A stretch of DNA of 64,000 bases. Source: Aquila chrysaetos chrysaetos (Eukaryota > Chordata > Aves > Accipitriformes > Accipitridae). Every line of letters starts with the position of its first letter. Position 1 is the first letter of the stretch. Both the position numbers and the translations under genes were made by a program. This document shows positions 11,121 to 49,653 of this stretch, in pieces. Location of the stretch: NCBI RefSeq assembly GCF_900496995.4, contig NC_044004.1, positions 83,521,538 to 83,585,537 on the forward strand. The letters run 5' to 3'. The notes below the pieces were generated by a model. The model was not told where the DNA came from. It did no database searches and worked only from the letters and a program-made list of their open reading frames with translations.

Positions 11121-11178
11121 GTTGAGGCTGGTTTCCTTCCTCCTGCCGAAAAGCGGCGCCGGGAAACCCATCCCGGCG

Positions 11179-11184
11179 TTTATA
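11179..11184 (-). promoter_or_regulatory. GC: GC TATA box
   Basis: TATAAA on the minus strand (TTTATA at 11179-11184 on plus), 59 bases upstream of the GC start codon at 11120. This predicts a transcription start near 11150 and a 5' UTR of about 30 bases. Confidence 0.75.
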
Positions 11185-11206
11185 CGGAGGCAGTGCCGAT
11201 GGCCGT

Positions 11207-11219
11207 GTGAATGATTAAT
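11207..11219. promoter_or_regulatory. GC: HNF1-like site, proximal
   Basis: GTGAATGATTAAT matches the palindromic HNF1 consensus GTTAATNATTAAC at 11 of the 12 informative positions allowing one half-site change, or with two mismatches if counted strictly. It sits just upstream of the GC TATA box. HNF1 control of mammalian DBP promoters is established; binding here is inferred. Confidence 0.55.
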
Positions 11220-11299
11220 CCCGTCGGCGGGGCAGAGGGCGAGCATCCTTGGCCTGCCTGCCATAGCCTGGGTGCCAGCGCCTCCAAAACCAGACGGAT

Positions 11300-11312
11300 T
11301 TTAATCATTAAC
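11300..11312. promoter_or_regulatory. GC: HNF1 site, distal
   Basis: On the minus strand it reads GTTAATGATTAAA, one mismatch from the HNF1 consensus. It lies about 150 bases upstream of the predicted GC start site and about 90 bases from the proximal HNF1-like site. This fits liver expression driven by HNF1. Confidence 0.65.
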
Positions 11313-11319
11313 TCGGCAA

Positions 11320-12968
11320 AACGGGGATGGGTTGCTGCGGGACCTCCGGCAGGGTCTTCCTGCCCGTGATGGGTGATGGGCGCAATGTGAACAAGAAGAG
11401 GAGACGTGCTGGGGCAAGCGCCCCGCGCATCCCTCAAGTGCGAAGCCGCGTGGGGTCGGGCCAATAAACGGTCCTCCCGACCCCGTGCGAGGAAGGAGCC
11501 CGCGCTTTTGGGGTGCTGGCACCCCAAACTCTCCCGGGGCGGTGATTCGGTGGAGCGCCCTGCTCCGCCGTGACCGCGTTGCGCCGGTCAGGGTGACTCC
11601 CACCCAAAAACGACCGAGGGGCCGGGTGTCGCGCACGCGCGCGCCCCAAGGTTTGCTGCTTTCGGAGAGCGTGCGTTGCTTTTTCCCCTTTTTGGGCTGA
11701 CGGCAGAGCCCCGGCCCCCCCCCCCCCCGGCTCCCCGGGATCTGCAGCAGAAGAGGCAGCGGGTGCTGTAACGTGACACTGGCAAGGTGCCGGGCTGGCG
11801 CTTGGGCTCGGGGAAAGAGGGACTGCGGAGCCAGCGGGGTCAGGAACAGCTTATTTATTCAGCCTTAGGAAGGCAGACGGCAGGCATCACAGCCCGAGGC
11901 TGCCGCAAAATAAATATCGAGCAAATATTGCCCTGGGTTAGCGGTGTTTGCTGAAGCAACCTGCTCCTCTGGGGTGGCTTCCCACCGGCGGACATACCGG
12001 TGCCACCCTGGGGCTTTTTAAGATCTCGGTCGTGACTAAAGCAACCAAATCTTAAATATCCCTTTTTCCAGGCAAGCAAACCGAGAGTTTGCAGCTGTTT
12101 GGAGCAAGTGGCGTGTGAGCGGGTTGCTGCTAGTCTTGGGCCACCCTCCAAATCTTGCAGTGGCGGGCTCATTTCTTGGGACAGTCCTGCGATAGCTGTG
12201 GTCTAGAGGTGGCTCTGGGTTAAAGCAGAGGTGACTGACACTGTGTGCACATCCAGATGTGTGGGGAAGTGGGTTTTCTTGCTTTTACTGGGATTAAAGG
12301 TGCTTTTTGCCCGCGAGCAGCCCTACCTGGGTGAAGGTGCCAGCTGAGATGCTTTTCAGCGCAGGGACGATGTTTTTGGAGCTGGGGAGTAATAAAACCA
12401 GAAACATGGGCCTAGTGTGGATGCTAGGGAGGATTCAGGGCCATTAGAGATCAGAGGAGGGTTTGATTACATGGTGCTTGTGGAAGAAACCTGGGTAATG
12501 GGCTATTTGGGTATAAACACAGAAATTCAATCTCTTTTGTGACTACCCCATATGAGTCAAGCTGTAATTTCCCAGCAGCTTGCTGTTGAATCGCCACCTA
12601 TTCAGCCTGTTTTGGACAAAACCCCGGGTATGGGTTAAACCAAATGGAAGATAATCGCTTGTAAAATCACAGCAAACCAGGGGGATGCTTAACAGCTCAT
12701 CAGCCGGTGGGGCGGGATGTGAAAAATTATGAAAACTGGTGGTGTGCTAGGCTGAAACCAGCCAGCCGTCCTGCCCCGGGCACAGTGGCAGCCTCCTGCC
12801 TGTGCCCCCCCAAATTCAGCCCCCCTGGGATGAGCAGCTGCCTTCACCATCCTGCTGAGCCTTAACCCCCTGTGATTTGGGTTCTGCAAGGTGCCTCGCT
12901 GTAATAAAATAAGGGGAGGGTGCACTCACCTGTGCTCAGATGCTCTGTAAGGCGTGCGTATATGATGC
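11320..12968. other. GC upstream region, no gene
   Basis: No coding exon is recognised. At 11850-11935 there are several A/T-rich forkhead-like words (TTATTTATTC, AAATAAATATCG, GCAAATATTG) in otherwise GC-rich DNA, so this could be a liver enhancer for GC. A C-run lies near 11708-11728. Confidence 0.4.
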
Positions 12969-13552
12969 TGTCGTGGTTTAACCCCAGCCGGCAACTAAGC
13001 ACCACGCAGCCGCTCGCTCAGTCCCCCTCCACCCAGTGCGATGGGGGAGAAAATCGGGAAAAGAAGTAAAACTCGTGGGTTGAGATAATAATGGTTTAAT
13101 AGAACAGAAAAGAAGAAACTAATAATGATAATGATAACACTAATAAAATGACAGCAGTAATAATAAAATAATTGGAATATACAAATGATGTGCAGTGCAA
13201 TTACTCACCACCCGCCGATTGATGCCCAGTTAGTCCCCGAGCAGTGATTCCCCCTGCCCCCACTCCCCCCCAGTTTCTATACTGGACATGACACCACATG
13301 GTATGGGAGTACCCTGATAGCCAATTTGGGTCAGCTGTCCTGGCTGTGTCCCCTCCCAACTTCTTGTGCCCCTCCAGCTTTCTCGCTGGCTGGGCTTGAG
13401 AAGCTGAAAAATCCTTGACTTTAGTCTAAACACTACTGAGCAACAACCGAAACCGTCAGCGTTATCAACATTCTTCTCTTACTGAACTCAAATCACAGCA
13501 CTGCACCAGCTACTGGGAAGACCCTAACTCTATCCCAGCCAAAACCAGGAGA
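12969..13552 (-). mobile_element. solo LTR of an avian endogenous retrovirus
   Basis: A 584-base sequence recognised as an LTR widespread in neoavian genomes. On the minus strand it begins TCTCCTGGTTTTGGCTGGGA (the family normally starts TG; the second base is changed here) and ends CCACGACA. Inside, also on minus, are a TATATTCC TATA-like word, an ATTAAA poly(A)-like signal and an A/T-rich ATTATTATTA segment. No gag, pol or env sequence flanks it, and no clear target-site duplication was seen. It lies 1.8 kb upstream of the GC promoter in the same orientation as GC. The family name (ERVL- or ERVK-type) is not certain. Confidence 0.85.
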
Positions 13553-13679
13553 GGCCCCGAGACCCTGCCCCGCTCTCTGGCCCTAAAAGCAGCCGGGGGT
13601 GGGGGGGCACCTGGGGCGATGCAGGGGGGGACCCCGGCCAGGGCTGCCCTGCCTTGGTTTGGGGGGCTTGGGGGCCAGT

Positions 13680-14160
13680 TTTTGCCAGGCTTTGTTCTTT
13701 TCCCCTTTTTCAGCAGGTCAGTCTATTTTCCTGCTGGTTTTCTGAGTTGTCTGGCATGGGCAGGTTGAAGGGGCTTTGGTTTGGTTTGGGGTTTTTTTTA
13801 TTTTGTTTTTAGGCGGGGGCTTTGCAGGGTCAGTTTTGCTGCCTTGGGGCTTTTCCCCATTGGGTGGGGCTGAGGGGGGTGTGTGTGGTTCATTTCACGT
13901 CTTTTGCACCTCTGCTTTTTATTTTTGTGCTTTTTACTTTCCTCTTTTTCCTCTTTTCCTTATTGCTGGGGTTCCTTTTTTATCATCCTCTTTTTTCTCC
14001 TTTTTAATCTGGTTTTTTCTGCTTTTTCCTTTTTTCTTTTTCCTGTTTTTTCCCCTTTTTTCTCTTTCTAAATATGTTTTTTCTGGGTTTTTTTTCCTTT
14101 TTTCCCCCCTTTCTTTTCCTCTCTTTTTCCCCCTCATTTTTCCCCTGTTTTGTCCCCAGC
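13680..14160. repeat. long pyrimidine-rich (T/C) tract
   Basis: The plus strand from about 13920 to 14155 is almost purely T and C (TTTTTCCTTTTTTC-type runs). A T/G-rich stretch precedes it. The matching A/G-rich minus strand gives spurious Lys/Glu/Arg-rich frames. No coding signal is seen. Confidence 0.8.
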
Positions 14161-16560
14161 CTCTTGCCGGTGCAGCCCCACAGCTGTGGGCACTCGGCCG
14201 ATGAGAAAGGACCCGCACCTGGGGTGGGCTTGGCTGGGGGTGGGCACAGGGAGGGGGTCGGGGGCTGCGGGGAAGCCGTGGTTGGGGTCTGGGCTTTTCT
14301 GCCGCCCTCCCCGGTCCTGGGGTGCCCAAAGCCCCGGCAGCTCTCGGCCGCGGGGGTGGCCGGTCCCCAGCGAGGGCTGTGGGGGTCCCTGTGCTCGTGC
14401 CGGGTACGTTCGTTAGCTGTACGGACGTAGGCCATCTATGAAGACCACCGGCAAAGCGAACGGCCCCTCTCGGCTGGCTGCGGCCGTCTGACCGAGCTGC
14501 TGCCGCGAGAGAACCGGGGCCGCGCATCGGCCTCTGCCTCCCAACCTCGGCCGTCTCCCCGGGAAATCTGTTCATTTCTCTCCTCTTTCCCCCGGGAAAC
14601 GAAAAAGCCAACGCGATGGTGCTGGGCGGCTGAGCTGGGACGGGCTGGCACGGGGAGGGCAGCGCTGCGGGGAGCTGCCCCGCAAACTGGAAACGAAGAG
14701 CCGGGCACTGGTCTGTGCCTGTGGCCGGTGGCGTCTGCGACGGGACGGGGCTGGAGACGGGGCCGCCGTGCCGCGTGTCGGTCCTTACCGGAGCCGGCGA
14801 CCCGACTTGCTGCCCGGGTCGCGTTTGTACCCGGTCTGGCTGCTCTGGGCTCTCCGCAGCCACGTTTTACCGAAAAAAGCTCGCGTGGCGTTCCTGGGTT
14901 CGGTGACGATGCCGTCGCCGACGGGTCGAGCGCGGCTTCTCCCGGGAAGGAGCGGGACGGCTTTCCTGCCAGCGAAGCGGCCTGGGGCGGCAGCCGGCCC
15001 CCCGCGAGGGCTTCGGCCGCTGCATCAAGTCGCGGGGCGTAGCGTAGCTGCCCAAATAATTCAGGTCGGTGCGTCCAAAGGTAAAGGAGAACCCCTCCCA
15101 CTCTGTTTGCCCGCAAGCCGGACGCCGGGGTTCGCGGCACAAAGGGCTAAAGGGGGGCAAGAGCCCCCCGTGATCTCCCTGCCCTGCCGGGGCAGGGGGG
15201 AGAGCCCGGCATCTGCTTTTTTATCCCTGTCCTCGTCGGTGCCGGCCCCCGCAACCCCCGACCTTCGCCGCCGCCCCGACGGAGCAGCACCAGGTAGGAC
15301 GCGGGGGGACCGCAGGCGGGACGCGGGGCGTCGCGAAGGGCTTTAGCGGGGTTGAACGCGGGAGACCTCGCTCTGCTCGACGCGGGCTACGGGCACGGGG
15401 CTGCCGCCGGCGTCGCGGTTAAGAGCAGCGCTGGGGGACGGCAGCGCCGGCGAGACGGTCCCCGAGCGGGAAAGCGCCGGCGCGAGGGACGACGGGGACG
15501 AAGCGCTCGTCGCCTCTCGCGGGTCGCCGACGGCGAGGCACGCGGCAGCTCGTGGCCCTGCTCCGGAGGGACCGTGGGGCTGCCGCGGCCGGGGGACCGG
15601 GGCACCCGGGGGGGTCAGTGCCCGCGGCCCCGCTCGTGGGGGGCTGGCGGAGCTCCTGTGCCACCACCGCCCCGTTACGGGCCAGGCTTCAGAACATCCC
15701 GTCGCCCTTCCCACTGGGAAGGGACCGCTCCTGGTAGCTGGGATCCCAACGGTGCCACGTGTTCGGGTGGGTCTGAAACGCGATTGAGCGGCCATAAATC
15801 AGTGCGGGGAACAGCAGACGTGCTCAAGTCCTGCCCCGGGGCTCTGCTGATGCCGGGAGCAGCCGTGTTCCTCCCCGAAACGAACAGCCAGGGGTTCGCG
15901 GTCCCGCTCCGGGGGTTCGCCCGAGGGCCAAAGCGGCCTCTCCCCGGGCTCCAGTTCCCCTTCCCCCCGGCCAGCGGCTGCACCGGCGGGACGGGTCTCG
16001 CCAGCCTCAGGCTGAAGCGAAGCGGTTTCTCCCGGGAAGCGCGTTTCGGCCGTGCCTGTGGAAAATCCGGGGGCCGCGCGGCACGGAGAGAGGCTCCCCC
16101 GAGTGCTACGGCTGAGTTTGAATGGGAAGAACGGAGTGAAACCGATGCGAAAACCAGTCTCGCTGTCTTGTTTCGGAGTCGGCGTTCCTCCCCCGCGCCC
16201 CGGCTTTGCGCGCTCTGCCTCCGGAGCGAGGGGAAGGAGGGAGAAGTGGAGGTGAGGATGAGGAGGGTGACCCCAGCGGCCGGCGGCGCCTCTCTGCCCG
16301 GCCCCGGCCCCTGGGGGCGGCGGGCAGGACGGGCTTCTGGGAAAGGCGGATGCCTGGCACCGCAAGGGAAGGGCCGGCTGGCGTCAGGCGGGACGGACGC
16401 GTGTTCCCCGGCCGGGCCGGGCCGATCTGAGTCTCCGCAGGCACCGGGGAACCTCCTCTTCTTCCCCGGGGGGAGGAAGGCGTCGCAGCTCTGCGGCGCT
16501 GCACTGGGGCCACGGGCCGGGGGCCGAGCGGGCGGGCGGCGGGACCCGGGGCGGCCCCGG
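14160..16560. other. GC-rich, CpG-island-like DNA, no recognised gene
   Basis: CpG-dense sequence. Long open frames occur on both strands (up to about 400 codons at 15352-16581), but this is expected where stop codons are scarce. Their Arg/Gly/Pro/Ala-rich translations match no family I know. Donor-like words exist (for example CACCAG before GTAGGA near 15294), but no exon chain could be built. It may be the 5' shoulder of the promoter module at 16.6 kb. Confidence 0.5.
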
Positions 16561-16576
16561 CGGGCGGGGCCGGGTG

Positions 16577-16735
16577 CGTGAATGGCGGGGGCGGGCCCCG
16601 GTCATTGAATGGAGGGGGCGGGGCGGTCCCATTAAAGGAGGGGGCGGCCCAGGTCTCTCAATGGAGGGGGCGGGGCGGTCCCATTAAAGGAGGGGGCGGC
16701 CCAGGTCTCTCAATGGAGGGGGCGGGGCGCGGGGC
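16577..16735 (+). repeat. 52-bp GC-box tandem repeat
   Basis: The unit carries GGGGGCGGGGCGGTCCCATT followed by AAAGGAGGGGGCGGCCCAGG and TCTCAATGGA. TCCCATTAAAGG begins at 16627 and again at 16679, a 52-base period with near-perfect identity; partial units flank it. Each unit has two Sp1-type GC boxes. The array ends about 20 bases before a TATA-like word at 16756. Confidence 0.85.
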
Positions 16736-17030
16736 GGGGCCCGCGGCTGCCGGGGCATAAAGCCCCGAGGGCCGCAGCCCCTCGCTCCCGTTCTCGCCCC
16801 CGGCCCGTTCCGTTCTGCTCCCGGCGCCGGGAACCGGGTTCGGGGCTCCAGGCCGGGCCCGCGGCGGGCCCGAGGCTCAGCGGAGCCGGAGCCGGGCCCG
16901 AGAGCCATTCCCGCGCTCCCGGGCCGCGCCAGCGGCCGTTGCGGGGTCCCGGCCCGGCGCCGAGTCGGAGCCCGGTTCCCGCGCTTGGGGGGCTCGATGC
17001 CAGGGTCGGCGGGCCGGTTTGGGGGCTCTG
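16736..17030 (+). promoter_or_regulatory. CpG-island promoter module 1
   Basis: A TATA-like CATAAAG at 16756-16762 lies directly after the GC-box array. It is followed by a CpG-rich leader (GCCCCGAGGGCCGCAGCCCC, CTCGCTC, CTCGCCC, CGGCCCGTTCC). The arrangement resembles a core promoter reading to the right, with a start near 16785. A second copy of the same order of words lies at 20272-20420. Transcription is inferred, not shown. Confidence 0.5.
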
Positions 17031-19250
17031 AAAGAGAGCCCGGGTCCTGCGCTGGGGGGGCTCAGTGGGTCAGGGCCAGAGCTGAGAAATGGAGCCCAGT
17101 CCTGCACCTGGGGGCTCGACACCAGGGTCACTGAGCTGGTTTTGGGGCTCCGGAAGGGGGACCGAGGGCTGCGTTTGGGGGGCTGGAAACTGAGAGCAAG
17201 TGCTGCGTGTTTGCGGCTTGAAACCGGGGTAACTTGGCCAGGTTCAGGGCTCAGACTCCGAGTCCTGCACGTTTGGCCAAGTTGGGGGCTCAGAAACAGA
17301 GTCCGAGCCCTGCGTTTTGGGGTCCTAATACCAGGGTCACTAGGTGAGTTTTGGGGCTCACAAAGGGGGAACAGTGCTGTGTTTTGGGGGGCTGGAAACC
17401 AGGCTCATCTGGTCAGTGTTAGAGCTGAGAAACCGAGATGAAGTCCTCCATTTTTGGGCTCAGAAACAAAGACCAAGTCCTGCATTTTGGAATCGTGACA
17501 CCGGGCTCATTTGGCCATTTTGGGGGCTCAGAAACAGAAACCAAAAGTCCTGCATTTTGGGGGTCCTGACAACCAGGGTCGCTAAGGCAGTTTTGGGACT
17601 CACAAACCAAGACTAAGTGCTGCATTCAGAGGGCTGGAAATTGAGACCAAGTCTTGTGTGTTTGGGCTCAGAAAGAGAGACTAAGAAGTCCTGTGTTTTG
17701 GAGTCCTGACACCAGGCTCATCTGGCCAGGTTCAGAGCTCAGAAACAGAAACTAAAAGTCCTGCGTTTTGGGGTCCTGACACCAGGGTCACTAAGCCAGT
17801 TTTGGGGCTCACAAAGGGGGACCAAGTGCTGTGTTTGGGGGGGCTGGAAACCAGCCTCACCTGGTCAGTGTTAGAGCTGAGAAACTGAGACCAAGTCCTG
17901 CATGTTTGGGCTCAGAAACAGACTGTGTCCTGCATGTTTGGGTCTCAACACCAGGCTCAGCTCAGAGACTGTGTCCTCCTCCATTTTGGAATCATGACAC
18001 CAGGCTCATGTGGCCAATTTTGGAGCTCGGAAACAAAAAGTCCTGCATTTTGGGGTCCTGACACCAGGGTCACTAGGCCAGGTCTTGGGCTCACAAAGAG
18101 AGACTAAAAGTGCTGCATTTTGGGGGGCTGGAAACCAAGTGCTGTGTCTTTCTTTGGGCTCAGAAACAGCGACTTACCCTGCACATATGGGATGTGACAC
18201 CAGGCTCAGCTCAGAAACAGAGACTAAGTAAGTCAGTCCTGCGTTTTGGGGCCCTGACACCAGGCTCATCTGGCCAGGTTCAGAGCGCAGAAACAGAGAC
18301 TAAGTCCTGTGTTTTGGGGTCCTGGAACCAGGCTCATTTAACCAGTTTGGGGCTCACAGAGAGACACTAAGTGCTGCGTTTTGGAAGGGCTGGAAACTGA
18401 GTGCTGTGTCTTTGGGCTCAGAAACAGAGACTTATCCTGCACATGTGGGGTGTGACACCAGGCTCAGCTCAGAAACAGAGACTAAAAGTCCTGCATTTTT
18501 GGGTCCTGGAACCAGGCTCATTTGGCTAGTTTGGGGGCTCACAGAGAGACACTAAGTGCTGTGGTTTTTTTTTTTTTGGGGGGGGGGGGGGGGGTCGCTG
18601 AAAACTGAGTGCTGTGTCTTTGGGCTCAGAAACAGAGACTTAGCCTGCACATGTGGGGTGTGACACCAGGCTCAGCTCAGAAACAGATACTAAGAAGTCC
18701 TGCGTTTTGGGGTCCTGGAACCAGGCTCATTTGGCCAGTTTGGGGGCTCAGAAACAGAGACTAAGTCCTGCATTTCAGGGTCTTGGAACCAGGGTCACCA
18801 AGCCAGTTTTGGGGCTAACAAAGAGAGACTAAGTGCTGTGTTTCAGGGGCTGGAAACTGAGACCAAGTGCTGTGTGTTTGGGGCTTGAAACTGGGCTCAT
18901 ATGGCCAGTGTTAGAGCTGAGAGCCCAAGTCCTGCATTTTAGTGCTCAGAGACAGTGACCAGGTGCTGTGTTTTGGGGGCCTGGAAACCAGGCTCATGTG
19001 GCCAGTGTTAGAGCTGAGGAAAAGAACTTAATTTCTGTGGGTCAGGGTCTTGGAGCATGGGTCAGGGAGCCACTTTCTGGGCTCCCAGAGAGAGACCAAG
19101 TGCTGTGTTTTGGGACCCAGACAGCCAGGGTTGGGGCTTAGAAACCGAAACCAAGTCATGCGTTCTGGGGGCTTGAAACCAGGCTTACCAGACCCCACTT
19201 ACAGCAAAGAAGCAGAGCCAAGGCCCCGTGTTGTGGGGACTCGCAGCCGG
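17030..19250 (+). repeat. hierarchical minisatellite (about 70-bp basic unit)
   Basis: Diverged head-to-tail units of two main types plus a short form. Type A contains AAGTCCTGCATTTTGGGGTC, then CTGACACCAGGCTCAT and GGGGCTCAGAAACAGAGACT. Type B contains AAGTGCTGTGTTTTGGGGGG, then CTGGAAACCAGG and AGTGTTAGAGCTGAGAAA. The short form joins AAGTCCTGCATGTTTGGGCT to CAGAAACAGAGAC. Type A landmarks recur at 17319, 17560, 17770 and 18052, so a higher-order period of roughly 210-280 bases is overlaid. A T13/G17 homopolymer junction sits at about 18565-18594. Reading frames break repeatedly and the array is judged non-coding. Confidence 0.85.
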
Positions 19251-19950
19251 GCTCCCTCAGCCAGTTTTAGGGCTCAGCCACCGGGCGCCCGTTCCGCCTT
19301 CGGGGGCTCGAAGCAGAGCCCCAGCCCCGCCTGTTTGGGCTCCCACTGGGCGCCCGCGGCTGCTCCCGGGATCCCCCCGGGGCCCGGCTTGGCCGCGGCT
19401 AGAGGGGAGCAGCGCCTGCCGCCCCTCTCGGGCCCTGGGCTGCCCCGGCCGGGCGGGACCGGGACCGGGACCAGGACCGGGCTGGGGGCACACACGCTGC
19501 CCGCCGAGCCCCCGCCGCCTTCCGCCTTTATTCCGCGGGACCAGCCCGGCACCCCCGCCCGGCGCAGGCGGGGGCCGCCGGACTTCGGCCCCGGGGCCCG
19601 GCCGCCGCTCCCCGCCGAGGCCCGGCCCCCGGTACCGCCACTCTCCGGCCGCGGGCCCGCGTCCCGCCCGGGGAGAGGCGGACACCGGCCGCGCACGCCC
19701 GCGAGGCGAGAGCCAGGCTCAGGCCCAGGCCCAAAACCAAACCAGACCCGGCCTCGGCCCCAACCCCAGACCCACCTCACCGCCCCCGGGCTCCGCAGCG
19801 CCCCGGAGAAGCCGCCGGGCCCGGCCGGGGCTCCGTCCCCGCGTCCCGAACCACGGGTCCCGCCCGGCGCCCCCGACCCGCTACCGACGGCCACCGCGGC
19901 CGTTGCCGGGGCCGGTCTGGCGGCGGAAGAGGAGGCGAGGAGGGGCGTGG
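19250..19950. other. CpG-rich flank between minisatellite and second promoter module
   Basis: GC-rich DNA that begins with CpG-containing relatives of the minisatellite words (TTCGGGGGCTCGAAGCAGAG, CCTGTTTGGGCTC near 19300-19345), then continues without recognisable repeats. Long open frames on both strands overlap one another and are attributed to base composition. Confidence 0.55.
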
Positions 19951-19955
19951 CCTCG

Positions 19956-20094
19956 GCGCGCATGCGCGGGGCGGGGCAGGCACAGGTGCGAGCGGGCGGG
20001 GCCGCAGGGCGCCTGCGCGGGGCGGGGCGGGCACAGGTGCGACCGGGCGGGGCCGCGGGGCGGGGCCTGGGTGCGCCTGCGCGGGGCGGGGCCG
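19956..20094 (+). repeat. 51-bp promoter repeat with NRF1, GC-box and E-box words
   Basis: CACAGGTGCGA begins at 19981 and again at 20032, a 51-base period. Units combine a TGCGCGGGG NRF1-type half-site, GGCGGGGC boxes and CAGGTG. The first unit holds a perfect NRF1 palindrome GCGCATGCGC at 19958-19967; later ones read CCTGCGCGG. A third, partial unit ends in GATTTGAACC. This is typical proximal-promoter content for a CpG-island gene. Confidence 0.8.
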
Positions 20095-20550
20095 AGCAGA
20101 TTTGAACCCCGGCGGCCGCCGTCGGCCCCCTCTTTTCGTTCCCCCGCGTCGGTGGCGGTGGCGGCGGCCAGGCCGGGCCGGGCTGGGCTGGGCTACCCCG
20201 GCGGGGCCCGGGGCCGCGGAGCCGGGAAGGGGCCGCGGGGTGCTGCCGGCGGAGGAGCGGCGGGGCTCGGGGAATAAAGCCCGGAGGGCCGGAGCCCGGC
20301 GACCCCCGCCGCGTCCTCGCTCTCGCCCGCGGCCGGGCCCGCCCCGCCGGTCCCTCCGGCCCGTCCGCTCTCCAGCAGCGCCCGGTCCCCCCGTCCCGGC
20401 AGCGGGGGGGGGTTTGGGGCTCCGCCGGGAGTTCTGGAGACGCGAGAGCCGCGGGGCCCCGGCCCGAGCCGGGCGTTTCCCCGGGCGGAGAAGGGAGCCC
20501 CGGGGCTGCGGTGGTGGGGCCGGGCCGGGGGTTGGAGCAGAGCCCGAGTC
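20095..20550 (+). promoter_or_regulatory. CpG-island promoter module 2 (paralogue of module 1)
   Basis: A GAATAAAGCCC TATA-like word at 20272-20282 is followed by GGAGGGCCGGAGCCC, CTCGCTCTCGCCC, CGGCCCGTCC and GGGTTTGGGGCTCC, in the same order as in module 1 at 16756-16850. One CpG-bearing copy of the minisatellite short form (GAGTCCTGCCGGTTTGGGCT, then CAGAAACGGAG) follows at about 20545. It probably starts a rightward transcript of unknown function. Confidence 0.5.
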
Positions 20551-20589
20551 CTGCCGGTTTGGGCTCAGAAACGGAGCCCTGGGCGGCTG

Positions 20590-20785
20590 CTGCTGTGGCC
20601 AGAGCTGGGGGGTGTTGGTGGGAGTTGGGGGATGTTGGGGAACTGCGTTGGGTGTTTGGTGAGGGCCTGGGTTGGGTGTTGGGGGGGCAGTGGGTGGTGG
20701 GTGGGAGGTGTAGGGGCCTGGGGTGGGTGGTGGGAGGTGGTGGTGGTGGGTGGGAGGTGTAGGGGGGTGGGTGGGCAGGGTGCGT
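20590..20785 (+). repeat. GGTGGG/GGGTGTTGG-rich tract
   Basis: About 190 bases of the plus strand are nearly all G and T, with many runs of three or more G (GGTGGGTGGTGGGAGGTGG and similar). The GTGGGAGGTGTAGGGG word occurs twice. Many G-quadruplexes could form on the plus strand, or in an RNA read rightward from module 2. Confidence 0.75.
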
Positions 20786-20916
20786 GGACCCCCACCGGAG
20801 GTGGGGGTCCGGTCGCGTTGGTCCCCGAAGCTTGGGAGGCTGGCATGCACCAGGCCGAATTAAACGTCTGAGATAGTCTCTGGGGGAAAAGGTGCTTTTC
20901 GCTGCGGGTTTCCAAC

Positions 20917-20965
20917 TCTTTATTCAAGGGGTGTCCCACCCCCGGACCAGTGATTGAACAATAAA
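20917..20965. terminator. facing poly(A) signals on both strands
   Basis: A minus-strand AATAAA (TTTATT at 20917-20922) and a plus-strand AATAAA at 20960-20965 lie within 50 bases of each other. A rightward transcript from module 2 and a leftward one from the 21-24 kb block could both end here. No transcript evidence is available. Confidence 0.4.
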
Positions 20966-21059
20966 CACAAACACACCAGTCACTGCCTGTACAGTTATGA
21001 CATTTAATATTCATATTCAAGTCATGACAGTGATTGATTTACGACCTTGCCAAAAGCCA

Positions 21060-21485
21060 AGATCGTTTTAACAAGCACGAGCTGGAGCTGGAGCTCAAAC
21101 CAACTGGAGTCTATAACATGCTGGAAGCCCGAACCAGCTGGAGCCGTCCATGAGCCGGGGCAGAAACAGATGAGCTGGAGCTGGAACAAGGCAGCGCCAT
21201 CCATGAGCCGGGGCAGAAACAACCAACCTGAAGGTGGAGCTGGGCCTGAAATGAATGGAGGCAGAAACAAATGAGCTGAAGGTGCAAATGAGCCGGAGCT
21301 GAAAACGGGGGGGGGGGGAGCCAACATCAACAGGGGCAGAAACAACCCACCTGGAGCTGCACATGAGCTGGATCCGAAACCAGGGCAGAAACAAACTGGT
21401 GCCACAAAGAAACTGGAGCTGTCCATGAGCTGGACCTGCAAACAAACGGGAGCCTGAACCAACAAACTAACAAAAACAAATGGGG
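21060..21485 (+). repeat. GAGCTGGAGCTG / GGGGCAGAAACA minisatellite
   Basis: Degenerate tandem repeats. CCATGAGCCGGGGCAGAAAC occurs at 21148 and 21201 (period 53). GAGCTGGAGCTG, GGCAGAAACAA and CAAACAAA words recur to about 21485, with an intervening G run near 21307. The AGAAACA core resembles the 17-19 kb array, but relatedness is not established. Confidence 0.7.
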
Positions 21486-21489
21486 GCCC

Positions 21490-23500
21490 AAACAACCGAC
21501 CCGAAACCACACTGACCTGGAGCCGCACAGTCCCCGGGCAGGCGCAGGCAGCTCAGCTTCTTCCTGGGGCTCCGCTCCCGGCGTGGCTGGGGCTCGTCTG
21601 TCCGTCCGTCCCTGTGCAGGGATAGATGTGGGACAATCAGCTCCTGGCAGCGTGGCCGGGACCAAAGAGCCCCGGAGCTGCAGCTCTGCCCGGCCCCTCG
21701 GCAGCAGCAGCCCAGCACCGCACACCCACGAGTGGAGTGGTGGAAACGGGGACAGGACACGAGAAACGTCCCATTTCTCCCCAGATCTGGCTGAACCCCC
21801 CTGCCCTGTGCAGCAGCAGCGGCACAGACTGACAACCAGCAGCCCCAGACTGGGGACAGGCCAGCACCGCACCAGTTCCCAATGCCCCTCGCAGCCACAG
21901 CCCCCTGAAACGTGCGGCCCAGACCTGCCCGGCCCTGGCTCAGCGCGGGCTGTGGGCATGGGGACCCCAGGGTCCCCACCTGCGCCCACAAACGGCCTCT
22001 GGCCACGGGGGGACCCTGCCCGGGCGGGTGCAGGGCCTGGCCCTGCGGCGCTGAGCCCCAAGGGACACGCACCGGCACCCCTCCTTCCCCGGGCACCGGG
22101 ATGAGCTTTCCCACACGGCATCGCCTGGGCCGCAGCACCAGGACGGCCGTCGCCCGGCCAGACCGGTTTCACTGACGGGGCCGCAGGAGCCGGTACGGGT
22201 CCCTGGAGCAGCCTCTGCTCCCACCGCAGCGCGTTTTGAGCTGAAAAGTTAGCTCTTAAGTAAAACGATGGCTTCACACGGAGCCCAGACCGCCCTGCTG
22301 CGGGATGCCCAAGGATGCCCTGTTCAAAGGTGTCGCCCTGCACGGCCGTGCCGTCGGAGGAGCCCGGCCGTCCCCACCTCGGCTGTGCGGCCCCGGTGCC
22401 TCTGCCCGTGCCAGCTCCCCGCAGGCAGCAAAACCCGTCACCGCAGGCAAACCCCGCTTTTACGGGGAGCGCTCGTACTCACCCCGGGCTGCGGGCAGGC
22501 GTGCGAGGTCCACTGGCGGCTGTGCGAAGGCCCCTCCGCGGCTTCTCCACGGCTGCGGCCCCTCTGCGGCGGGTTCGGAGGCGGACAGGAGCCCCTCTTG
22601 TCGGGGACTGGACCGGGCGGGAGTCCGGCCTGTGGAGCCCGTACAGCCGCTGCCAGTTCATACTTTGAGCAGGCCTTGATCCCGCGGCCGAAATGCGGAG
22701 CTGCCGGGGACCCCCAGCCCCACAGGCCGAGCTGTAGCTGCTGCCCCGGACCCCAGAGGGTCGGTGCCCAAACCCACCGGGGAGGTCACCGGGTCCCAGC
22801 CGGGCACCCACGGCGGGTCCCGCACCGGGGGGGAGAGGGAAAGGGACCGCTCGCCCCCGGCTGCCCCGCGCGCCTGCCCCAGAGCGGAGCGGGAACCGAG
22901 CGCCCAGGATGGGGTACCCGGCTGGGAAGGGGGGCTCAGCTCCTGTCAGTGAATCCACAACTGGCCTGTGCTGACGCAGGAGAGAGCCTGGGACGCAAAG
23001 CACAGAATCACAAGAGAAAATACTTATCCGTGCGCTTGAGGCGTCTCAGCCACATCGGGGCATCCCAAACGTGGGTTTACCCGGAGCTCTCGCACCCTTC
23101 AAACGTTCGGCTCATCGCTGGCACCCACACTAAGGATTCCTGCTCACAGAAAAACTCGGCACAGCAACTCGATTTCTGCAGCGTTCTTGCTGCTTGTCTG
23201 TGGATCCAGACGGCCCCGGAGTCCGTCTTGCCAGAGTCACTTCTCCGTGCCGCCAGCCGATGCCGGGAGGGTTTCAAAGCCGCGTCAGAAGGGCTGGGAT
23301 GGTGGCGTTACCTCGGATGTCCCGGGGTGTCCTTTATCCTTCAGGGACAGCTCTCAGCTTCCACAAAGCAAAGTCCTCGAGTGCGGGGCTCGGCCATCCT
23401 TCAGTTTGTTTTACTTCAGCACGAGCACTACCCACGTCTCCAGTAAAACCCCACAGCCTCATCACTCTGCGGTGTAGAATAGGAACTAGTAGAGATCAGC
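21490..23500. other. GC-rich DNA without a recognised gene
   Basis: CpG-containing sequence with overlapping long frames on both strands (for example 22268-23446 plus and 21327-22343 minus). None resembles a known protein and no consistent exon chain was found. A donor-like GGGGTGAGTACG on the minus strand lies near 22480. It may belong to a non-coding transcript. Confidence 0.45.
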
Positions 23501-23740
23501 AAAGTTAATACGCTTTCATATGATAAAGACCAACCGATGTCATCGTTAAGGAAGAGCATTTTCTTAACACACCCCGGGCAGGGGGCATGTGCAGCACATG
23601 CCGCAGCTCCCCCCGAGGCCTCTCAGAGCGAGCCCTGCAGGGAGGCATCAGCCCCCGGGACTGCGGCTGAGGGATGGATCTGCGGTAGCCCCAGACCCCC
23701 AGGAGCTCCACTCCTCCCCCTCCCCGAGCAAAGTCCCCGC

Positions 23741-24000
23741 TCACCAGTGCTGGGAGCAGCCATGGCGTCGGCCAGTTCCCCCGAGCCGCGGCTGCCCCGA
23801 TGCCGGCAGCCCCGTGAGCAAGCAGCCCTCATGCCCGGCACGCAGCAGAGCCCCGGGGAGCTGCCAGAGCGCAGGCAGCGCGGCGACGGCAGCTCCCGCA
23901 GCCGGGAAACGTCGCGGCCGACAGCCAGCGCCGCGTCTGCCCGCGGTCGCTTGCGGGCTCCCGGCAAAAAGCCAGCGGCTGAGGGGCTGCCGGGTCAGGC
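23741..24000 (-). other. candidate first exon of a leftward transcript
   Basis: On the minus strand a CpG-rich stretch of about 250 bases ends in GCCATGGCTGCTCCCAGCAC, then TG, then a donor-like GTGAGCGGGG near 23741. The ATG has a fair Kozak context and would give MAAPST before the splice. No downstream exon could be joined in frame, so the transcript may be non-coding. Recognition is by pattern only. Confidence 0.25.
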
Positions 24001-24036
24001 ACACGGACGGGGAGGGCTCGGAGATGGACACGGCAC

Positions 24037-24042
24037 AATAAA
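24037..24042 (+). terminator. plus-strand AATAAA in GC-rich block
   Basis: A canonical AATAAA followed by T/G-rich CTCTGTTTGGGCCTG, as expected for a cleavage site. It faces the minus-strand ATTAAA about 100 bases to the right. It may end a rightward transcript through 22-24 kb; no such exon chain is demonstrated. Confidence 0.3.
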
Positions 24043-24119
24043 ACACTCTGTTTGGGCCTGCGGGGGGGAGAGAAAAGCATGGTAAAAATTAATGCACAAA
24101 CGCAACGACTGCTGTGCGA

Positions 24120-25530
24120 AGTCAACACTTTAACCTTTAATCTTAAGTTCCAACTGTACATCTCAACCGTAACCTGTGGCTAGCAAGCACACACAGGGGA
24201 CTGGTAAACAGCTGCTTAACACATCAGCTAACGAACGGTGTTAAGCAAAAGGAAACAGAAATGCATTTAATTATACCCTTGATCTCACCAGAACGCCTAC
24301 AGACAGGCTCTTCTTGTTTGGGTGACCTGAAGAACCGCTGCACCAGTTCTGGTCCCAGTCCCGCTTGCCCCCAGCAGCATGGGGGACGCGATCCCCCCCA
24401 GCTCCGGCCCCACTGGGAACCAGCTGCAGCTCTTGGGTTTTTGAAGGAAGCAGCAGAAAGCATTCTTCAGAGTAACTGCCGATACCCGAAGCTGGGAACC
24501 AGAAGAAACTGTGGAGAAAGCCAGGCAAGGGAAGACAGGTGGAGCCGAACGAGGTGCCTGCAGCTCGTGGTGGCTCTCCTCGTGCCTCCCGTTACTCACC
24601 ACGATTAGGGCAGTAACCAGCCTCTCCTCCCTGCGCCCCCTCTTTGGAGAGCCCCAGGAACGGCTGACAGTCCGTGGGTCATCCAGTCTGTGGGTTTGGG
24701 TGCCAAGACCACGTCCCCGCGTCCAGGGAACGCCCCGCCTGTGCAGCCCAAACCGTCCTGGCCTGGAAACGGGGCTGGAAACGGGGGTAGCCCAGAGCAA
24801 TCGAGACAGAACGTCTCGCAGCCTGGGGTCTCGGCAAATCCAGCAGCACTTGCGTTACACGGGGACCACGCAAAGCGCACCAAAACGGCCTCAGCTCCAC
24901 CGAAGGGGACCTCAGACACGGCTCCCGGCACCGCTGCGGAGCCCGCGCCCACCGCCCCGGCCGGCCCCCGAGAGCCCTCCGGGCACGGCAGCACCCGCCC
25001 CGGCGGCCCCCGCCCCGAAGCCCCCCGTCCCGAGCCCGCGCGGGGGACGGACGCCCCTGCCCGGGCCGCTTCGGCCCCCGGCGGGGACGGGCGACGGCGG
25101 CGGCTTTGGGAAGAGGGAAAGCGGCGGCGGGGCCGACGGCAGCCGCCCGGCCCGGCGTGAGCGGTGCCCGAAACGCTGCCCCGAGAGCCGGGTGCGCGGG
25201 TGCCGGTGCTCTAACGGACCCGGGACGCCGCCCGAGGAGCAGCGGTGCAGCCGCGTCCAGTCATGGACCCCCCTTCGGTCGGAGACCCCCCCTTCCAGTC
25301 AGGAACACCCCCCTTCCAGTCAGGGGACCCTCTTTCCAGTCAGGGACCCCCCCCTTCCAGTCAGGGACCCCCCCCTTCCAGTCAGGGACCCCCCGCCCCG
25401 CCCGTACCTGCTCCCGCCGCGGCGTCCCGCTCCGCTGGGTCCCCTCACGACGGCGCCCCCTGCCGGCGGCGTCCGGTACTGCATCCCCAGGGCTTGTTAA
25501 AGCCTCGGCGGAGGGGGGGCGGATCGGCAC
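24120..25530 (-). other. candidate leftward non-coding transcription unit
   Basis: Signals on the minus strand, in order: inverted CCAAT boxes near 25567-25610; a CpG-rich possible first exon ending in GGGAGCAG before a GTACGGGC donor near 25405; a strong pyrimidine tract with acceptor (TTTCTCCACAG, exon from 24508); and an ATTAAA poly(A)-type signal at 24136-24141. No conserved open frame links them. The model is inference from splice-like words alone. Confidence 0.25.
25262..25398 (+). repeat. 21-22-bp CCAGTCAGGGACCCCCC tandem repeat
   Basis: About six head-to-tail copies of TTCCAGTCAGGGACCCCCCC with small changes. The left-hand copy (CTTCGGTCGGAGACC) keeps CpGs and is the most diverged. 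The array abuts the candidate minus-strand donor at 25405. Confidence 0.85.
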
Positions 25531-25539
25531 ACCCATGCC

Positions 25540-25760
25540 GAGCGGGGGCGGCCGCCACCCGCTCTGACCAATCAGCGGTGCGGGCGCCTGCGACGAACAG
25601 CCAATAGCGAGGAAGGGCGGGAACACACACCGTCCCGGTGATGCCGCCTAGCGTTCGCCCCGCCGCGGCGGCCGCAGCCCGGCCGGTGTCCCCGGCTGGC
25701 TTGGCTCCGTCAGCTTTCCTTGATAAGTAATTCCCTGTCCTCAACGTGAGGAGTGGCCGC
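25540..25760. promoter_or_regulatory. CCAAT-box CpG-island promoter candidate
   Basis: GACCAATCAG and AGCCAATAGC on the plus strand (near 25567 and 25601) are two CCAAT boxes 34 bases apart in CpG-dense DNA with GGGCGG words. CCAAT boxes work in either orientation, so it could serve the candidate leftward unit or an unidentified rightward one. The GC-rich block ends shortly beyond, near 25970. Confidence 0.45.
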
Positions 25761-46620: not shown

Positions 46621-47269
46621 TCTCCTGATCTATGTAGCTTGTAAGCAGGGAAGTAAAATCAACTGTGGTTTAATACCAGCTGTACATGAAAATATTTCAT
46701 TTTCAATGAAATGGGATTGCATTTGGATACATTCAGGCAAAAGGTTTGTGCCGCTTCAGAAAGCTTTAATTTAATCACTGTTTTTCATGGCTCAGCAATC
46801 TCACTGTTGCTTAAGTGCCAGATTACTCAAGCTGTTGAGTAAATGGATTTCTCAAGATTTCTGATTATTTTTTTTCTCAAAATAAGCTGTTCAAGTTGTT
46901 GGTTTGTTTACTTGACACAACAAGGTTGGCAAGTTTACATCCTGTCTGGCTTTCTTCTCCTTTGGGAGAAGGAGGACTTAATTTACAGAGCCTGCAGAAG
47001 GAAGAAAACCTTCAGCAGTCTTACTGGTCACCTTTGTATGCCTGTGTTGTAAAATCAAACTAATAGTATTTGTTGCTTTTCCTATCTGGGGAGGCTCAGG
47101 ACGTGGACTGTTAAAATAAGCCATGGAGGGATGAGTATACATAAGCTTTGCATGTATTTCAGCACACAGTATACCCAAACTAGTCACATTTCTTCAGCTC
47201 AATTTCAAGCATAGTAAAATGACCTTTGTAAAAATATCTTTTAAGGCACGTTGCAACACAAGTAAGAAA

Positions 47270-49653
47270 ATGGACTCAAACTCTTCATTCGATTGGCCTC
47301 ACGCGCTGAATTATAATGGGACATACAAGTACCTCTACTTAGAAGGCAATGTCTCCTATGTGGACTTCTACCTTCACCAGCCTTCAGTGGCAGCTGTCTT
47401 CATCGTCTCTTACCTCCTGATCTTCCTGCTCTGTATGGTTGGCAACGGAGTGGTTTGCTTTATTGTCCTGAGGAGCAAACACATGCGTACAGTCACAAAC
47501 CTTTTCATCTTAAACCTGGCTGTCAGTGATTTACTGGTGGGAATCTTCTGCATGCCCACCACCCTCCTGGACAACATCATTGCAGGTAGGCTGGTTCGCA
47601 CCATGTGGCAGAAAGGGCTCGAGGGGGACTCGCCTGCATTTCTGAGCACTGGCCTCCCTAGGGGTCCCGAGAGCCGGGAGCGTATTTTGGAGCAGGCTCT
47701 GTAGGCATTTCGAGTCACTGGAAGTCAGAGGTGAGGAAGACAAGCCTCTAATCCACCTTCTGACTGGGGCTGTACGTGCTGACTTCTGCCTCCGTTGCCT
47801 TTAGGAAGGGATTCTCCCACTACCAGGTTGTACATTCAGGAAAACTTGGCAGATGCTACGAGCCAGATGCAATCAACTGTAGCGGTCGGTTCCCTTTCTC
47901 GTCTTGAGGTCTTGTTTTAAAAGGATGTTAAACCACAAACGTTTGCTTTGCTGTTTTTTGGAACATCAGAAACTCACCCAAGGCGTTTGGCAAAGCATTT
48001 GTTTACATAACCTCTGTCTCCCCAACCCCTGCTATGGCCTGATAGAGCAAAAGAAATGTATTAGTTCTGGGGTGGAAATTTCCTCTTATGCATATAAGCC
48101 TAGCGCTGCAGTGGGATGGCGGCGATTTCAATTCTCTGTGTCCTTCCAGGATGGCCGTTTGGGAGCCTGGTTTGCAAGATGAGCGGGATGGTCCAAGGAA
48201 TCTCTGTTTCTGCCTCCGTCTTCACTCTAGTTGCTATTGCCGTAGACAGGTAAGATGATGCAGAGACTGTAAACTGTCACTTCCATCTCTCTCTGGCCAC
48301 CTGACCATGCTGAGGCTGATTCATTAATCCATACAACACTGCAATACATGAGATGTACTTTGCTCCTGAGGCTATTGAGCAAAACAAAACGCGGCCGGGT
48401 CTAAAGAGCAGCCATAGCAATTTGCTCCTCCACAGGTATCTCTTAAAGATGGTACAGCTGTGCTACACCTGGCTGCCTAGAATTGGTTTGTTCCTTAGCT
48501 ATTAAGCTAGATCGCAGAGGCACTAGTACCGGCTTTGGTTAAATGAAGTAGCAGAAGCAGCAGGCTGATATGGAGACAGATCAAAATGAGGAAATTTTAA
48601 CAACAAATGTGTTTTTAAGGTTGTTTTTACCAACACAGCTCTTAAATGGAGCAACTAAATGCAACTCCATGGGTTTATGCAGGATGAGGAGATGATTCCA
48701 TCTATACTTTCTAAAAAACATACAATTTAAAATGTGTGTGTGTGCTCACCTCTTTGTTTAAGCTTTCCTTAAATGGCTTCTCCACATATGTCCCCGGGTG
48801 TCTTGGCCACAGGTTTCGATGCATTGTTTATCCGTTTAAGCAGAAGCTGACCATTTCAACTGCAGTCGCCATTATAGCGGTCATCTGGATTCTGGCCATC
48901 GCAATCATGTGTCCTTCTGCGGTCATGCTGCAGGTACAAGAAGAGAAGCATTTCAGGGTCATCCTTGGCGATGGCAATGAAACCCGCCCTGTATACTGGT
49001 GCCGGGAGGACTGGCCTAACCCAGGAATGCGAAAGATCTATACAACGGTTCTGTTTGCCAACATCTATCTGGCTCCCCTGTCGCTCATTATTATCATGTA
49101 TGCTAGGATAAGCATTGCTCTTTTCAACACAGCAATGCCCGTGGTGGGAAAACACAGACAGAGGCAGCGGCACAGCGTGTCTAAGAAGAAACAAAAAGTC
49201 ATCAAAATGCTCATTATTGTGGCTTTGCTGTTCACCCTGTCCTGGCTTCCCTTGTGGACTCTGATGATGCTCTCAGACTACGCCAACCTTTCAGATATCC
49301 AGTTGCAGATCATCAACATTTATATCTATCCCTTTGCTCACTGGCTGGCCTTTTTCAACAGCAGCATCAACCCCATCATCTACGGTTTCTTTAATGAAAA
49401 CTTTCGCCGAGGATTTCAGGCGGCCTTCAAACTTCAGCTCTGCTCCGGGGAGATCGTTCACAGGGAGGTCTATTCTCAGCGAGGTCAAAGCAATGCCATT
49501 TTGCCAGCTGCCAACTGCCAGACACCCCAGGATCAAGCTTGTCAAAATGCTAAGGAGGAGGGGAAGACAGTTAAGAAAGGAAATTGGGTGAATAACCAGC
49601 AGGATTTGATAATGGAGGATCTAGAAGAGCCCTGCCACGATGAAATTAAGTGA
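47270..49653 (+). CDS. NPFFR2: neuropeptide FF receptor 2 (NPFFR2), three coding exons
   Basis: Class A G-protein-coupled receptor for RFamide peptides (NPFF/NPAF), acting at the plasma membrane, usually through Gi/o. Exons 47270-47585, 48150-48249 and 48813-49653 join at GT/AG sites to 1257 nt, or 418 residues. Human isoforms without the long N-terminal extension are about 420. The N-terminus has three sequons (Asn4, Asn16, Asn27). TM1 carries MVGNGVVCF and TM2 [11 protein letters not shown]. Exon 2 supplies [11 protein letters not shown] with the conserved TM3 cysteine. AVDRF (Asp138-Arg139-Phe140) replaces DRY, as in human NPFFR2, and YWCREDWPN holds the partner cysteine in loop 2. TM6 has SWLPLW and TM7 [12 protein letters not shown]. 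The start at 47270 was chosen because MDSNSS aligns with the human DTNSS region. An in-frame ATG at 47219 would add 17 residues, and upstream exons cannot be excluded. Confidence 0.95.

Follow-up and report, generated by a model that had tools for sequence, protein, structure and literature searches.

The 64-kb stretch of Aquila chrysaetos chrysaetos DNA analysed here (hereafter the window; C1:83,521,538-83,585,537, whose own positions are used below unless a contig is given) contains two CpG-rich, promoter-like modules, numbered 1 and 2, which flank a minisatellite upstream of the NPFFR2 gene. Searches of the window's own assembly (1.23 Gb, 144 contigs) reveal that module 2 and the block following it (~20.1-22.3 kb) have relatives elsewhere in the genome, the largest group of which is located near the ends of large contigs and points outward. 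We put at about even the chance that this segment belongs, as an interstitial copy, to a non-coding element present many times at contig ends, pointing outward and carrying a promoter that would act like those of the telomeric repeat-containing RNA (TERRA).

Of all parts of the family, a hairpin-forming block of 168 bp (20738..20905, plus strand) has the widest distribution of matches, and a genome search with 20,738-21,094 yields 42 rows, two of which are fragments of their neighbours. A second query, 441 bp from the copy at the left end of C10, matches 36 places: 20 near contig ends, seven on small contigs, three internal ones on C24 and C5, and six on C1. The 20 end copies, less than 50 kb from an end, are carried by C3, C6-C10, C12, C14-C16, C18, C21, C24-C26 and C37, whose lengths, as read for all but C8, are 17.7-88.2 Mb. 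All 20 point outward, 12 at left ends on the minus strand and eight at right ends on the plus strand (sign test, 1e-6), and C10, C16, C21 and C24 carry one copy at each end. The distance to the contig end ranges from 1.5 to 45.6 kb, with a median of 14.0 kb. Contig-end copies are 85-97% identical to the C10 copy, and those of C3 and C15 are 97.6% identical to each other over 2.1 kb.

The element is organised in a recurrent order: upstream DNA that is GC-rich or a CpG island in part of the copies, a ATAAAGCC core, a short leader, minisatellite units and finally the hairpin block, which begins ~440-495 bp past the core (495 bp in the window, ~450 bp in end copies and ~440 bp in a relative at 60.3 Mb on C1). 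Seventeen copies were inspected, 16 from the set of 20 at contig ends plus an internal one on C5; in every one, at least one minisatellite unit precedes the hairpin block and the observed/expected (o/e) CpG ratio is 0.46-0.81. GGGAAATAAAGCC is present upstream in 10 of them and ATACAGCC in one, and no large unit array is seen in the two longer end stretches inspected. Downstream, 250-500 bp past the core, each of the 13 copies measured, namely 11 contig-end copies and those at 60.3 and 61.3 Mb on C1, has an excess of G over C (skew +0.28 to +0.34).

The AATAAAG word of the core could alternatively be read as a poly(A) signal rather than as a TATA-like box, the core then being the 3' end of an outward-pointing gene. 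AATAAAGC indeed occurs in 13 of 20 scanned copies (10 of the 17 contig-end/C5 copies, module 2 and the 60.3 and 61.3 Mb copies), and the minus strand has AATAAAG as well, at 19,526 and 20,918. We nevertheless consider this very improbable: the word reads CATAAAG in module 1 and AATACAG in the C10-left copy, conserved DNA runs for hundreds of bases past the word, and no coding exon is found in the open reading frames (ORFs) scanned. More generally, the 20 long ORFs between 10.6 and 25.9 kb give no Pfam match at E 0.1 and 10 long ORFs from flanks and relatives give a single one, far below the cut-off, while the hairpin alignment across copies contains indels of one and four bases, which argue against coding. 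With these 30 ORFs, all long ones, and the frame-breaking indels, a coding gene was rejected; the element appears non-coding, as the preliminary description of the locus had suggested it might be.

We also considered the hairpin block as an RNA gene. Folded singly, 20,770-20,905 beats most of 200 shuffles on both strands (z -2.29, 3/200 as good, on the plus strand; z -3.67, 0/200, on the minus strand). When 20 distinct rows, obtained from 26 copies by merging identical ones, are folded as an alignment with alifold, the plus strand reaches -38.0 against -31.0 ± 3.1 for column shuffles, none of 100 being as low, and the minus strand -18.9 against -18.2 ± 3.5. The alignment thus lends the plus-strand fold weak support: pairs in which both sides vary are few, and the fold of the consensus differs from the single-sequence one. 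No known RNA family is detected at gathering score over the window, and the block itself has only chance-level matches to RNA families (E up to 10). The RNA-gene candidate was not retained.

Within the window, the core of module 1 (CGGGGCATAAAGCCCC..., 16751..16805) and that of module 2 (GGAATAAAGCCCGGAGGGCCG..., 20261..20334), both on the plus strand, are related beyond their composition. Aligned over 16,751-16,805 and 20,268-20,334 they score 47, which none of 300 dinucleotide-preserving shuffles reaches (24.7 ± 3.9, maximum 41), and an end-to-end alignment of 16,735-17,110 with 20,245-20,600 scores 64, against 30.0 ± 4.6 (maximum 43) for 200 two-base block shuffles. Local scores of wider stretches are less extreme: 49, reached by 2/300 shuffles, and 54, reached by 1/300 and equalled by the reverse-complement control. 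When the module 1 core is placed at 2,534 positions over the window, the top three scores all fall at module 2 (48, 48 and 46; next 38). The best placement of the module 2 core is on the minus strand of a GC-box array (16,501, score 54), ahead of module 1 (47) and the next placement (42), as GC-rich DNA can match in this way. Within 10-27 kb, ATAAAGCCC has two occurrences only, at 16,757 and 20,274. Past the core, the best local match of the leaders scores 37, inside the shuffled range (maximum 51, n = 300), and corresponds to the minisatellite unit. The paralogy of the two modules, initially proposed from shared words, is therefore borne out by a collinear alignment whose score exceeds that of shuffled sequence.

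The relatives on C1 clarify which module is the more complete. A search with module 1 finds itself, its counterpart in an inverted copy of the region (arm B, described below) and, over 66 bp, places at 61.3 and 60.3 Mb, among four scored candidates. The 60.3 and 61.3 Mb copies are of the module-2 type: their core (84% identical to that of module 2), units, hairpin block and pieces across ~2 kb downstream all align, and at 60.3 Mb an array of the same unit precedes the island. Module 1 thus looks like a partial local duplicate of the module 2 core. The initial reading is thus supported as regards a pair of paralogous CpG-island modules that enclose a minisatellite. A locus special to the interval is not supported, since the same genome contains an inverted copy, further C1 copies and the larger contig-end family.

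Module 1 occupies the right end of CpG island A (14261..17110) and module 2 lies in island B (19351..20570), both delimited by a strict CpG scan. The plus-strand minisatellite between the modules (16977..19339, ~34/68-bp units), detected by Tandem Repeats Finder (TRF), a hidden Markov model (HMM) and composition, is CpG-poor over most of its length (o/e 0-0.36) and TpG/CpA-rich, the islands having an o/e of 0.8-1.2. Such a composition would be expected if the islands were unmethylated in the germline and the array between them methylated. The HMM gives 41 rows, some of them weak, over 16,977-19,339, and two more after module 2 (20537..20580, plus strand), with E 0.033 and 0.13 when the 64-kb window is searched. 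These two are considered real because units at the same position in the 60.3 and 61.3 Mb relatives score E 2.7e-8 and 5.2e-8. Minisatellite words following both modules are thereby confirmed, and the layout agrees with an array that expanded between the two modules. The possibility that the minisatellite is a database contamination was discarded, as an exact 23-base pattern has no match in viral contigs.

A plus-strand GC-box tandem array precedes each module. Array 1 (16562..16729) consists of 52-bp units, detected by TRF over 16,587-16,729 and in the alignment of the arms, and reads as 26-bp units from 16,562; array 2 (19943..20094) contains 51-bp units over 19,943-20,062 by TRF. The arrays that had been described are therefore real, and a common sequence between them is not demonstrable: their similarity is not significant (score 48, reached by 14/300 shuffles), so that shared ancestry was rejected as unproven, and the array-to-ATAAAG distance differs, being 28 bp in module 1 and ~180-210 bp in module 2. 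In a pattern scan, array 2 shows three NRF1-like sites, at 19,958, 20,009 and 20,073. It is followed by a segment (20115..20178, plus strand) that contains the pyrimidine-rich CCCCCTCTTTTCG and within which transcription may start; the 60.3 Mb relative aligns to it (78% over 64 bp, E 0.004) and continues with a donor-like AG|GTGAGG, a word found upstream of the core at 61.3 Mb as well.

Donor-like words also bear on the possibility that modules 1 and 2 are far-upstream alternative promoters of NPFFR2, whose 5' exons would be spliced to an acceptor before the coding exon at ~47.2 kb. NPFFR2 (coding exons 47263..49652, plus strand) is on the same strand and is the nearest confirmed downstream gene (phmmer against PDB chains named Neuropeptide FF receptor 2, E 1.6e-45 and 2.1e-115); donor-like words occur at 16,252, 17,344 and, more weakly, 20,659, and acceptor-like sites are present at 47,163 and 47,198. 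The 17,344 donor lies, however, inside a minisatellite unit, module 2 and the coding exon are ~27 kb apart, and the element is multi-copy with relatives elsewhere in the genome, all of which makes an NPFFR2 promoter improbable in our opinion.

Both modules lie in a region that exists twice, in inverted orientation. Its arm A (12968..25394, plus strand) and arm B (C1:83,625,574-83,639,065, minus strand) align by blastn in pieces 94.3-98.5% identical and are separated by ~79 kb, with NPFFR2 in between. Homology ends at 12,968 and, on the arm B side, at 117,528 in coordinates extended beyond the window (ext); on the right side, identity drops to ~80% around 25.3-25.5 kb. The left edge of arm A coincides with the 5' end of an interspersed repeat resembling a long terminal repeat (LTR; 12968..13500, plus strand), a candidate avian endogenous retrovirus LTR, of which partial copies exist on C3 and, on C1, near 61.3 Mb; the duplication endpoint is thus probably a recombination inside such a repeat. 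On C1, the hairpin block also occurs 85% identical at 84.50 Mb and, 96-97% identical to that of the window, as a pair ~167 kb apart in opposite orientations (82,154,704-82,155,054, minus; 82,321,667-82,322,012, plus); inverted duplication on this contig may be recurrent.

Comparison of the arms over 12,968-23,406, in bins taken from prior results, five of which were summed after the table had been seen, shows a single difference in 611 aligned positions for the arrays, cores and hairpin block taken together, and 215 in 9,561 (2.2%) for everything else. There is no mismatch over 80 bp at the module 1 core nor over 155 bp at array 2, and array 1 is longer in arm A by exactly 52 bp, or one unit, a possible promoter variable number tandem repeat.

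A rival explanation, which we consider possible and less likely, is that the element is a passive GC-rich subtelomeric repeat, spread by segmental duplication and recombination, its GC content being kept by biased conversion without effective transcription. In birds, CpG islands are regarded as hotspots of recombination, and the minisatellites, the LTR-bounded inverted duplication and the high resemblance of end copies are all products expected of chromosome-end exchange. The conservation between arms is also explicable by gene conversion: a simple repeat tract differs at 0 of 459 positions, showing that conversion can give the same low divergence, which could hence be its origin in the core parts as well. 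Set against a passive repeat are the lower divergence of arrays and cores compared with the rest of the arms and the order and spacing of core, units and hairpin block, kept across groups ~20% diverged.

Besides this repeat tract, several results weigh against an outward, TERRA-like promoter. The core word is absent from 6 of the 17 inspected copies. In 9 of the 11 end copies measured, the 250 bp upstream of the core are only 59-62% GC with a C-rich skew, a pyrimidine-rich stretch rather than a CpG island, and a strict NRF1 pattern is found in 1 of the 17 contig-end/C5 copies; a looser pattern upstream matches three times in the C3 copy (two matches overlapping) and never in its close relative on C15. 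Between the window and the end copies, blastn aligns mainly the hairpin block (81-83% over ~132 bp; 77-82% for block relatives near contig ends in general), and the kinship of core and units rests on order, spacing and HMM. Four small contigs (145-937 kb) carry seven copies between them in mixed orientation; such contigs, as fragments, need not end at chromosome ends. Finally, (TTAGGG)5 is found at no contig end, its only place being internal, on C4, and several of eight contig ends inspected look retroviral by eye, so that these ends are not proven telomeric; the element is probably farther from the telomere than human promoters are. As separate observations, the (TTAGGG)5 of C4 is an interstitial telomeric sequence at 54,501,934-54,501,993, the sole one found in the assembly, and the element is almost equally far from the starts of C18 (15,096) and C6 (15,097), two contigs whose first 200 bases look retroviral by eye.

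Human TERRA promoters are described as CpG islands with 61-29-37 repeats at many subtelomeres, with NRF1 sites in the 29-bp repeats (PMC6600276; PMC12242772). Like human type I promoters, the element is multi-copy, CpG-rich, near many ends (here contig ends) and outward, and has a G-rich strand downstream and, in the window copy, NRF1-like sites in a GC-rich array. CpG richness combined with tandem repeats is found in the window modules (CpG o/e 0.8-1.0) and in the 17 contig-end/C5 copies; orientation is contig-endward in all 20 end copies, the contig end being presumably the telomere side. The likeness is one of anatomy, with differences: units here are of 51/52 and 34/68 bp, the element lies kilobases from the contig end (distances above), and among the 17 contig-end/C5 copies strict NRF1-like sites are confined to the single one mentioned. 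The element may work like a TERRA promoter, and we do not claim that it is one, because of the lack of telomere repeats at the ends, the retroviral-looking ends and the nine upstream stretches without a CpG island.

Two other systems can be compared. PO41, a subtelomeric non-coding repeat of chicken and quail transcribed from both strands (PMC4301066), is likewise a bird repeat near chromosome ends; its unit is 41 bp, and this size sets it apart from our main array of 34/68 bp. Macrosatellites such as DXZ4 and D4Z4, which have a promoter in each unit, share repeated promoter-like, CpG-rich DNA with the element, whose copies are here dispersed, single, paired or inverted, without a head-to-tail kb-scale array. 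A promoter-bearing macrosatellite, one of the first suggestions for this locus, was therefore abandoned. In chicken, TERRA has been quantified by reverse transcription-PCR (PMC8532957), in a report whose main text contains neither subtelomer* nor promoter, and no bird TERRA promoter appears in the titles and abstract openings of the literature searched, which covers few subscription journals.

We favour an outward-RNA promoter because of the GC boxes, the NRF1-like sites, the A/T box in GC-rich DNA, the CpG-rich sequence and the GC skew; calling the modules promoters is a deduction from composition, motifs and conservation. Anatomy, family, placement, orientation and the low divergence of the core parts between arms are observed; transcription, nearness to telomeres and function are deduced. 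Module 1 would have arisen as a partial duplicate of the module 2 core, the minisatellite growing between them; the whole of 12,968-25,394 is present a second time, inverted, beyond NPFFR2, with one endpoint at the LTR-like repeat. Most likely, the element would be an RNA polymerase II promoter, whose GC boxes and NRF1-like sites would recruit activators while unmethylated. Transcription could start near the pyrimidine-rich stretch or ~30 bp past ATAAA, so that a non-coding RNA, rich in G and prone to R-loops, would be driven toward the contig end, and the internal copies would keep the promoter-like sequence without being able to reach a telomere.

A more speculative extension, which we regard as possible and somewhat doubtful, is that the family supplies this bird's promoters for telomere-ward RNA, as a shared subtelomeric element made of a ATAAAGCC core, a leader of repeats and a block of structured RNA, which faces outward at many chromosome ends. 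It would be analogous to the human 61-29-37 repeats and independent of them. Copies inside chromosomes, such as the NPFFR2 pair, would then be former ends or transposed subtelomeric segments, and may still start transcription. The outward, sequence-defined family at 20 contig ends provides exact sites at which starts, methylation, NRF1 binding and R-loops can be looked for, and may mark former chromosome ends inside chromosomes. Two internal copies of contig-end type lie 36 kb apart in the same orientation on C24 (7,736,540 and 7,772,397), possibly a former chromosome end.

Some other features accompany the element. A degenerate GAGCTG-rich repeat tract (21031..21550, plus strand) is also present in the 60.3 and 61.3 Mb copies. 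An ORF at 10,620-11,300 on the minus strand has a signal-peptide-like stretch and no Pfam match, and the gene GC is not confirmed. The right end of arm A is a plus-strand 21/41-bp minisatellite (25256..25394, TRF), longer in arm B. Between module 2 and NPFFR2, a candidate CpG island extends over 24.7-26.0 kb, and at ~25,450-25,700 an island with two CCAAT boxes and a CTCF-like word is similar by eye in arm B, outside the high-identity arm.

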